Part shown: in pieces, positions 12,303 to 62,211 of the stretch
Layout: every line of letters starts with the position of its first letter
Numbering within the stretch: the first letter of the stretch is position 1
Assembly: GCA_019914995.1 (NCBI GenBank)
Contig: CM034140.1
Coordinates: forward strand, 4,650,001-4,714,000
Direction of reading: 5' to 3'
Length of the DNA stretch: 64,000 bases
DNA from: Acanthochlamys bracteata
Taxonomy: Eukaryota; Streptophyta; Magnoliopsida; Pandanales; Velloziaceae
Translations under genes and position numbers: made by a program
Notes under the pieces: model-generated
Seen by the model: the letters and a program-made list of their open reading frames with translations, nothing else
The model's database searches: none
Told to the model about the DNA's origin: nothing

Positions 12303-12597
12303 GGACGTGTTTCAAACGTTCGTAATTTTATTTTTTTCTGTTATATTTTGAGTTTCTAACAGTTCATATATTTTAATTACATAAAAAACTCAGAACTCTA
12401 CTTCTATATATGAAACTCTAGTTTCAATTTTTTTATTTGCACATTTTTTAATACAACTATATTTTTTAATTTTCAACATATTTTTGAAACCTATTGAAAC
12501 ACAAATATTGAACTCTACTTTTATTTTATTTTTCAAAAAATTCTACATTTTATTTTTACTTTCACGAAACTCAGTTACGGACATTTAAAACACGTCC
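12303..12597. mobile_element. 295-bp MITE of the same TIR family
   Basis: The left end GGACGTGTTTCAAACGTTCG and the reverse complement of the right end GGACGTGTTTTAAATGTCCG form terminal inverted repeats of about 22-25 bases. The 3-bp target duplication TTA flanks both sides (12300-12302 and 12598-12600). The right arm aligns with the left arm of the 59362-61856 element with about 42 of 46 bases matching, including a 23-base identical run. It has no coding capacity. Confidence 0.88.
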
Positions 12598-58730: not shown

Positions 58731-59429
58731 AGAAATTGAGACTAATTTCGTCGTCATCTTGGATTGAAATTTATTAGTCCTCTACAAATCTCTCAAAACG
58801 AAGCTCTAAATCTCTCCCTGCGGCTACGAAATCAGAGATCCAATTTCACTGTCATCTCGCCTACAAATTATCGGAGAGATCTGCCGGGAGAATATAATCT
58901 TTTTGGAGATGGCTGCCTGGGATTTCGAGTGACGAGAGTAAATTGAATGAGAGTAAAAATAGTGAAAGAGAGTGGAAGAGAGTCAAAATAGACAGTAAAA
59001 AAATATTCAAATTGTAAAAGGCCAATACTACATCGCAAAGGTCCTTCTCAAACATGAGTTTAGCATTCCATTCATTCACATCCATCGCAAGTCCTTTATA
59101 TTCCCTTGCCAATCGCAACATTCCATTCCATTCCATTCACATCCATCGCAACAGTCCTTTTAATTCACATGAGACTCTCATTCAATTCCATTCACATCCA
59201 TCGCAAGGGTCATTTTCAAGCATGACATTCATATTCCATTCCATTCACATTTCCACAACTATTGAGATTCACATCCATTCACATTTTAGGAACTCTTTAT
59301 GTATTTTCACAAAAAATATTCACATTACAAATGTCTTGAAGTTATTGTACATTTGAGCTATGGGCGTGTTTCAAATACCCGTAACTGAGTTTCGTGAAAG
59401 TGAAAAATCGGAAGTGTAGTTTCTTAAAA

Positions 59430-59580
59430 AATGGGTTGAAAGTGGAGTTCAGTTTTTGTGTTTCAATTGATTTTTGAAGTGAGTTGAAAGTGGAGTTCAG
59501 ATTTTATGTTTCAATTACTTTTGAAAGTGAGTTGGAAGTGAAGTTCAAATTTTGTATGTCAATTGCATTTGAAAATGATA
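59430..59580. repeat. 48-bp tandem repeat inside the left end of the TIR element
   Basis: Three degenerate copies of a unit of about 48 bases (GTTGAAAGTGGAGTTCAG...TTTCAATT...TTGAAG) follow one another. The MITE at 12303-12597 carries related sequence beside its matching end (GTAGAGTTCAATATTTGTG on the - strand), which ties the two elements together. Confidence 0.75.
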
Positions 59581-60549
59581 ACTAAGTAAGATAAAAGTGA
59601 TATATAATATTTATAGATATAAAATTAAAATAAAATTTTTTAATAATTATTTATTTAATTAAGATTCAATTATACTCCGTATATATGATGTAATAATTGT
59701 ATAATCTATTCAATTAACTAAGATGTATATTATATAATAAATTTGTCCTTAAAAAATACAATATTATAATATTAATGCACATTGTAAATTTATACTATCA
59801 CTTATAATCAATGATAACGAAATATAAAAACTGATATTACAATACTAGATGTCATAAAATATATCAAATTTATATTGCATAATATTATATAATACTCCAT
59901 GCTACAAAATATATTTATATTTATGTTACCCTGACGTCACAATCGGCATTATAATTTGATATGCCATAAAATATATCATACTACTACAATAATATCGCAT
60001 GTCCTCTAAATAAAATAATACATTCCACATAACATACATGTATTAAAAAAAAATACAAAATCCTTGAAAAATAATTCTCCAGATCAAAATTTCCCTCCAT
60101 TTATTAGAGTGAAGTTAAAAAGAAAAGATCGAAACTTAGAAACAAAAAATTCGAAGAAATTCTTTAATTTTGATACAACTTTAAAAAAATATTTGCTTAA
60201 GTCAAGCAAGAACTTCACAAATTCTTACGAAGACAAATCAAACATTACAACCAGAAATTGAACACCCAAAAGGACAAAAAAAAGTTTACATACAGAAAAA
60301 ACAAACATGCCTAAGAATCCTCTCTAGAGAATTATTCAAAAGTTTAACAGCTTCTAACAAAGTTTCCGCTTCTTCTATACATAACATCTAACGGCTTTGA
60401 AGAAACATAAGCATCAGGGCTTTTAATGGAACCAAAATTACTCTTCTTGAAAATTCTAATCTCACCAGATTGTTGTTTTGTCTGTGTAGTGATGATGATG
60501 ATCTCTATGAACCAGAAGGTCTTTGTTTTGCCTTGATAGATTAATTCAT

Positions 60550-61397
60550 GCTCATGCAGTTTGGCTTACTAACACTACAACCTCTTCAGTAGTGTTCTCC
60601 GAGGCTAACAAAATTGTTCCAAACATAGGTGTAGATGTACATAGTGAAGACGATGAAGTAGAGCTTTCATCATAGTGAAATTAAGAACTCGGTGTCCAAC
60701 TCGATCGGGTTGCCGTCCACCTCTCCAACCAGCTCCAGTTTCCATTGCAGAATTGAAGAACTTGTTGATATACAAACCTTCGCTTCTCTTATAGGATCAA
60801 GCTAGATGCGATGGGCTTCGATAGCTTACTGCACAGCTTGTCCCTCAGCAGACATGCGAACACGTCGAGCACAAATGCGAAGCTTGAACGCGGACGAGTG
60901 CCTGCATGCACGGGAGGGTCACGACAGCTTGTTTCCTCACTTGTCGGCAACGTACCAATGCCTGCAACCGCACTATTTTCTTCAACGCCCTCACCGCTCT
61001 TCTTGTATTCATCAACCATAAACCAAGAACAGATCAAAGAAGTAACACAACGATCAAAACGAGAGTAACAAAGTTCTAATTTTTATCTTCTCTATTAGTT
61101 TGATTTCTAACAAAGTTCACTAGCTTGTTTCAGAGACTTCAGACAGAGTAGAAGAACGTCAACCAGTAAGGCGTGAGCTTCGTCAGAGTTTCTTCCATCT
61201 CCTGCCTTTTCCATTATGCATCAATTCCTTCTCTTTCACAATACCAGTATCCTAGAAAGAAAGCCCCATTTCAGAACTACAATAATAATCAACTAAAAAA
61301 ATCAAGAGTACAAATTGTGAGATAGATATATTACGAGTGTTTGTTCTTCTTTGTCTTGCTTTTCGAGTCCAATGAATGATTTCAGCCACTTTCCAGA
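60550..61397 (-). pseudogene. Captured IQD (calmodulin-binding IQ67-domain) gene fragments
   Basis: Several pieces lie in gene order on the - strand. An exon-1-like N terminus at 61397-61335 (SGKWLKSFIGLEKQDKEEQ) ends at a possible donor. A short KGRRWKKL-like piece lies at about 61240-61200. The IQ67 core at 61006-60780 reads [20 protein letters not shown] and [20 protein letters not shown], then in a shifted frame [14 protein letters not shown], then LDPIREA. A later NWSWLERWTATR-like piece is at about 60740-60690. IQD proteins are plant scaffold proteins that bind calmodulin through IQ motifs. The IQ motif is cut at the conserved intron position before ARR. A one-base shift and internal losses show it is not functional. 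It lies wholly inside the TIR element. Confidence 0.85.
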
Positions 61398-62211
61398 AAA
61401 GAAATCTGGGAAAGATTTGGGGATTCTTCGTACCGAGATCGAACGCGTGAGTTCAAATAGGTACTGAAAATTTTTCGAAAATCCACCGCCGACGCCGCCG
61501 CCAACAACTGTCAATGGTGGTGGAACGATCCGAGCGCCGGTGACGGGGTTAACATTTTATGGATCGAGGATGGCTACATTGGTGTGTCTGAGTTCAACAA
61601 GCGGCCGTCCAAGATCGGGCTCGAGATCCACCAGATATCTTAGAAGCTCGCCAACCTTGCCAGAGCGAATGCACAATAGCTTGGAGGAAAAGAGGATCTC
61701 GCGAAGATGAACGCTGAATTAAAGTTCGACAGAGAACTCGGTACAGTAAAGAAAAACTGTAGTTCTCAGATCCATATTGTAGTTGAAACACGTGAACTCA
61801 CCGGAACTCCAAATCAGGCGAGAGAAACTGGAGTTCCGGTGAATTGAAACACGCCCTATATATAACCGTAAGTATAATACACTTCAATATGGATCTCAAT
61901 CCAAGTCTCAATAGCAAGACCGGACGAGGCCAGATTGAATCTAAAATAATAACATTTACGTTCAATCTAAAACAGATAGCTCACTGTCTTATGCTCCAGA
62001 TGGACCTGCTTGGACATTCCAAGTTATGCCCAGATTCAATACAAAAACAAATACATTTACAGTTCAGTGAGTTTACATCAGCCAACATTTTGAGTTCTCG
62101 ACAGTCCTTTGTTTTACAAAACAAGCCACCAGCAACCTCAAAAAAGAAAAAAAAAACACAAAACACAAAACAACAACAACCTGCAACAACATGACAGATT
62201 TTTGTTGCTCC

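Follow-up and report, generated by a model that had tools for sequence, protein, structure and literature searches.

Within the 64,000-nucleotide stretch of DNA analysed here (the window), positions 59362–61856 are occupied by a non-autonomous terminal inverted repeat (TIR) element of 2495 bp, exactly the coordinates placed by the first-pass annotation, with inverted arms and the trinucleotide TAT on both sides as the target-site duplication (TSD; 59359–59361 outside the left end and 61857–61859 outside the right end). The 25-nt outer arms (59362–59386, the left TIR on the plus strand, and 61832–61856, the right TIR) are 84% complementary, and both outer ends carry an identical 13-bp core, GGGCGTGTTTCAA, which without mismatch occurs in the window only at these two ends. 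The transposon-derived parts, given on the plus strand, are an AT-rich left part (59362–60070, inner edge approximate) with three tandem 48-bp subterminal repeats (59429–59572; 83% and 75% identity to the first repeat), and a right part (61661–61856) that includes the right TIR. When up to two mismatches were allowed the core had four matches in the window (0.75 expected; 1 of 100 shuffles reached four), the remaining two belonging to a small relative at 12303–12597. This is a 295-bp MITE of the same family with ends GGACGTGTTTCAA and GGACGTGTTTTAA and TTA on both sides, and its right 110–130 bp is ~75–81% identical to the left terminus of the large elements.

The interior of the element holds, on the minus strand at 60199–61394, a broken IQD gene that aligned to its donor in four blocks (60199–60707, 60711–60751, 60757–61101, and 61126–61394). 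The IQ67-domain text that had been reported on the reverse strand is present in shifting frames, with an open stretch in the translation at 60848–61012; this stretch had 35 matches in the genome, six of them inside copies of the element. The donor gene that the first-pass annotation proposed to look for was located on another contig (C7, L015), where it is apparently intact, with a start codon at C7:1542257 and frames that we read as five exons (exons were placed by reading frames). Pfam searches of the donor exons identified DUF4005 (24.1 bits, cut-off 22.1) and an IQ motif just under its cut-off (19.9 bits, cut-off 20.3); DUF4005 is a domain that goes with IQD proteins. The donor matched the element at 87–90% identity in long blocks, introns included, which bears out the earlier suggestion of a capture from genomic DNA. 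In the longer copies of the element the capture corresponds to reverse-strand positions 1424–3359 of L015, from ~140 bp past the stop codon to ~115 bp before the start codon. Introns 1 and 2 are retained, and three donor segments of 207, 306, and 129 bp are missing, the 129-bp loss removing the end of exon 2 with the IQ motif; the C9, C6, C20, and C14 copies still have the start-codon stretch, which the window and C7 copies have lost. For IQD, a spliced, intron-free capture was considered and rejected, as two introns are kept and part of the missing donor sequence is exonic.

IQD is not the only cargo, and in this respect the first-pass annotation was incomplete: it missed a second host gene, SYP (syntaxin-5-like), which surrounds the IQD block. 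On the plus strand, 60075–60204 correspond to the upstream region of a donor on C3 (L067, 1178–1299) and 61402–61660 to its first exon (L067, 1501–1762), with in-frame stops in the captured copy. Exon 1 of the C3 donor matched Syntaxin-5_N in Pfam (20 bits, cut-off 16.6), and we take the gene to be SYP3-type; a later exon of the donor had no Pfam match, and exon 1 had no match in the PDB. Searches of the window fragments gave no Pfam match for the SYP stretch and one weak, unrelated Pfam match for the IQD stretch, and an NCBIfam search returned no match, so the names IQD and SYP are those of the identified donors and not of the fragments themselves. The window copy holds ~1.2 kb of IQD with introns and ~390 bp of SYP. 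The IQD block lies inside the SYP piece in opposite orientation and replaces ~100 bp of it (donor positions 1300 to ~1399, junctions read by eye), and each of the five complete copies has SYP donor matches flanking the IQD block on either side. The SYP segment ~1426–1500 is also missing in most copies, and 1400–1430 is retained in the C14 copy.

A genome search with the whole element identified, among the matches listed, copies on C7 (98% identity), C9 (92%), C6 (90%), and C20 (90%), a partial copy on C14, and a shortened copy on C8. At least dozens of other places, again among the matches listed, share only the left 500–620 bp or the right end, and the left ~500–620 bp has 75–82% identity in at least dozens of family members. 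Five contigs have a complete copy with both IQD and SYP, and every one of these copies is flanked by a perfect 3-bp duplication of its own (TAT, TAA, TTA, TGA, and TAA). To count TSDs across the family, 24 regions were scanned and 20 carried forward to the comparison (C4a, C12b, C1d, and C16 were dropped, their paired end being unresolved); one of these, C14t, has a right end only and stands outside the 19 complete elements, as do L017, L018, L020, L021, L024, and L028, which were scanned for single ends only. Comparison of the three bases outside each end showed a perfect TSD in 16 of the 19 (12 TTA/TAA, two TGA, one ATA, and the TAT of the window copy) and no perfect one in C8t, C8a, and C1c. 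Both checks set beforehand thus speak for the annotation: the ends recur as paired termini, and the IQD piece lies at unrelated sites between the same ends, with its best-matching gene on another contig.

The insertion site itself is also found uninterrupted. When the window flanks were joined with a single TAT they matched C17:4786164–4786470 at 85% identity over query positions 21–322, spanning the insertion point, and 12 of 29 matches (two of the 29 being the window's own flanks) reached at least 20 bases past the join on both sides; from these uninterrupted relatives we conclude that the element inserted into one member of a different dispersed repeat family. Directly to the left of the element, window positions 59040–59300 consist of degenerate repeats rich in CATTCCATTCACATCCATCGCA, and the flank belongs to a dispersed repeat, relatives of which occur on many contigs.

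Several features place the element with PIF/Harbinger (Tourist) transposons. The 3-bp, mostly TTA/TAA TSDs fit this superfamily, as do the short TIRs of the GGGC..TGTTT type at both ends, an end form typical of PIF/Harbinger. In addition, host-gene DNA lies in a non-autonomous TIR element multiplied as a unit, the configuration by which Pack-TYPE elements are recognized. The classic gene-capturing elements of plants are Pack-MULEs and Helitrons, which speaks for a Mutator-type Pack-MULE or a Helitron. Pack-MULEs have TSDs of 9–11 bp, however, and the 3-bp TSDs found here rule them out; Helitrons, which insert between A and T, have neither TSD nor TIR, and both are present. Nor is the arrangement likely to have come about by chance, as a scan of the genome (195.5 Mb, 557 contigs) with the end pattern at up to one mismatch gave 464 + 468 = 932 matches and a reversed control 0 + 0. 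We therefore give these three explanations, taken together, almost no weight. Among 100 of the 932 end sites that were listed (from C1 to C4) there were 10 pairs of inward-facing ends no more than 300 bp apart, which indicates that a MITE-like class accompanies the family.

As to a source of transposase, the DDE_Tnp_4 profile gave 151 matches among 150 of the 311 candidates scored, and several DDE_Tnp_4 elements of this genome have GGGCATGTTTGGC or GGGGCGTTTGGGA at their ends, a TIR form related to that of the window element. None of the 34 exact-end sites, the 100 listed end sites, or the 19 complete elements had a DDE_Tnp_4 match within 10 kb (150 matches listed), and an end scan of 30 DDE_Tnp_4 loci together with element boundaries identified no transposase element with the ends of the window element; where the edges of DDE_Tnp_4 elements could be read, their TIRs were related but different. 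End matches with three mismatches at L029 and L030 were considered as marking an autonomous partner and rejected, since they open away from the transposase, which thus lies outside. Two inward-facing family ends stand 7.1 kb apart at C2:9307688–9314767, as either one longer element or two separate insertions. The earlier Harbinger assignment thus fits in TSD and end type, and we use the label because of these only, with no transposase element bearing the same ends among the sites examined and with the TSD of the window copy, TAT, not being the canonical TWA. Overall, we regard it as probable that the window holds a non-autonomous Pack-type PIF/Harbinger element that captured SYP and then, through repair as set out below, IQD, and was moved in trans, the mover presumably being a PIF transposase.

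Since IQD is nested inside the SYP piece, the sequence suggests that SYP was captured before IQD. Nesting alone is silent on whether the chimera was formed inside or outside the transposon, and IQD might have entered a SYP copy by ordinary genomic rearrangement, with the transposon then taking the chimera at once. Against this, the SYP locus on C3 is uninterrupted, and two loci (L065 on C6 and L066 on C13) show SYP from position 1424 or 1412 to ~1760 followed by the same right part of the transposon, with no IQD; both are fragments in which no left end was recognised, and in L066 the right end is truncated by 41 bp. Furthermore, in six IQD-free elements (C17, C12a, C14a, C1a, C8a, and C8b) the shared right part begins within the final 31 bp of SYP. 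BLAST listed this short SYP match for five of the six (absent for C8b), and alignment scores of 22–26 stood against maxima of 19–27 in 200 shuffles, above the maximum in two elements (C12a and C14a), equal to it in two, and below it in two, so that shuffle support is partial. These six are related copies and the remnant is not decisive alone; we count it because the same SYP position lies beside the same transposon junction. The two fragments and the six elements point to SYP first and IQD later, without proving it, and we consider a chimera formed before any capture very unlikely.

The junctions bear on how a capture of SYP followed by one of IQD may have come about. The sequence AGTCA at the SYP/IQD junction is common to both donors and is a candidate microhomology, and at one of the IQD deletion junctions the C9, C6, and C20 copies have a 24-bp repeat around a filler, of which, in C9, 18 bp are identical to sequence elsewhere in the IQD gene. 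The copies of the window, C7, and C14 (three of six) have no such filler, so it may be secondary. Signatures of this kind, microhomology together with a copied filler, favour a capture route in which a break was repaired by template switching. The cargo could also have been assembled by fusion of neighbouring insertions, with two elements and the host DNA between them mobilised as one, as described for maize Pack-PIF elements in the sections of that study available to us (PMC8903248). Fusion predicts that younger cargo lies further in, as it does in the window element; however, where the SYP and IQD pieces meet, no TIR or subterminal transposon sequence is seen, and fusion is hard to square with the replacement by IQD of part of a single SYP copy. 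We think fusion improbable for the element as a whole, though it could explain the older SYP step. The explanations that compete with repair, considered jointly, leave a modest but real share of doubt.

Under repair by template switching, the following history may be proposed. An ancestral element would have taken up part of a SYP3-type syntaxin gene (~590 bp, from its upstream region to the end of exon 1). A break within this SYP piece would then have been repaired by template switching, such that a reverse-oriented copy of the IQD gene, its introns kept, took the place of ~100 bp of upstream SYP sequence; three stretches of the IQD gene would have been skipped during copying or lost afterwards. 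The two-gene element would finally have been mobilised by a transposase acting in trans, giving rise to the complete copies on five contigs.

Stops interrupt the broken frames of the cargo. The window and C7 copies stand at a Kimura distance of 0.020, and the other pairs of copies at 0.051–0.087. In the IQD block, differences at codon positions 1, 2, and 3 (frames assigned manually) numbered 21, 18, and 13 between C6 and C20, 7, 10, and 11 between the window and C9, and 21, 17, and 23 between the window and the donor. With no deficit at positions 1 and 2 and with broken frames, the cargo is non-coding and, as far as its frames show, yields neither an IQD nor a SYP protein; it might still act on the donor genes through antisense or small RNA.

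Copies with different cargo, which had been proposed as something to look for, also exist in this family. The element C2a (C2:10641521–10644596; L080 and L076), whose TSD is TTA, has long stretches of EXO70 sequence (Pfam Exo70_C, E-values 1.1e-36 and 3.1e-30), one of them open over 286 codons, and an additional IPT-like piece with a sub-threshold IPP-transferase match; its EXO70-side sequence had matches of 85–97% identity at five more places (C1, C19, two on C20, and C7). An element on C10 (L023, C10:2083341–2085301; C10a type) and its relatives have sequence in common with C5:5339896–5341493, the edges of the shared pieces overlapping by 3–5 bp at three of four joins. The stretches missing from this type might be introns or deletions; spliced capture is not claimed here, as the overlaps (AAAAA, AATA, and GTT) are not consistent splice signals. 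The C17 group shares sequence with C6:9780535–9782621 and with C4, and neither C17-type nor C10a-type cargo had a Pfam match. We tentatively raise the possibility, which we hold somewhat less likely than its opposite, that this PIF family captures genes serially by template switching at breaks within the element, with younger cargo inside older, at least three unrelated host genes involved, and repair prevailing over fusion. If so, successive captures would be preserved in its elements in an order that can be dated, and there are probably further cargo genes beyond SYP, IQD, and EXO70, such as those behind the IPT-like piece and the C5 and C6 loci.

The first-pass annotation had called gene capture less often described for elements with 3-bp duplications. 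Such capture is less unusual than it supposed, as capture by PIF elements is in print for grapevine, maize, and rice, and the window element is best seen as a well-documented new case. We did not find the term Pack-Harbinger in the literature searched, where Pack-PIF is in use, and a search of titles and the beginnings of abstracts found no transposon capture of IQD. The Pack-PIF elements of maize and rice (Gisby and Catoni 2022, PMC8903248) are, in the sections available to us, PIF elements that are non-autonomous, contain coding DNA of the host, and mostly have TTA/TAA as TSD, and in their cluster #18 a 58-bp second capture was added to a first of 163 bp. The window element resembles them in being non-autonomous and PIF-type, in carrying host DNA, and in the prevalence of TTA/TAA TSDs in its family; judged by the same sections it differs in that its pieces are far larger and one is nested within the other. 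Pifvine-3 of grapevine (PMC2528002), as presented in the available part of that paper, has transduplicated host exons and introns common to several copies, and the window family likewise holds host exons and introns in several copies. The Pifvine-3 family has a transposase, whereas the elements of the window type are without one, and nesting of captures, present in the window element, is not described for Pifvine-3 in that part of the paper. For the Pack-TIRs of animals (PMC8277862), the available text sets out gap-filling and FoSTeST models, in which junction microhomology and fillers arise via template switching in repair; a candidate junction microhomology and a filler are seen in the window family too, although those are animal elements and Harbinger is not mentioned in that text. 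The published examples of PIF capture, as far as the available sections of these papers present them, are short or single pieces. The window copy records the order of events with unusual clarity, and since one genome offers both donors, several copies, a probable capture order, and readable junctions, the fusion and template-switching models can be compared directly in it.
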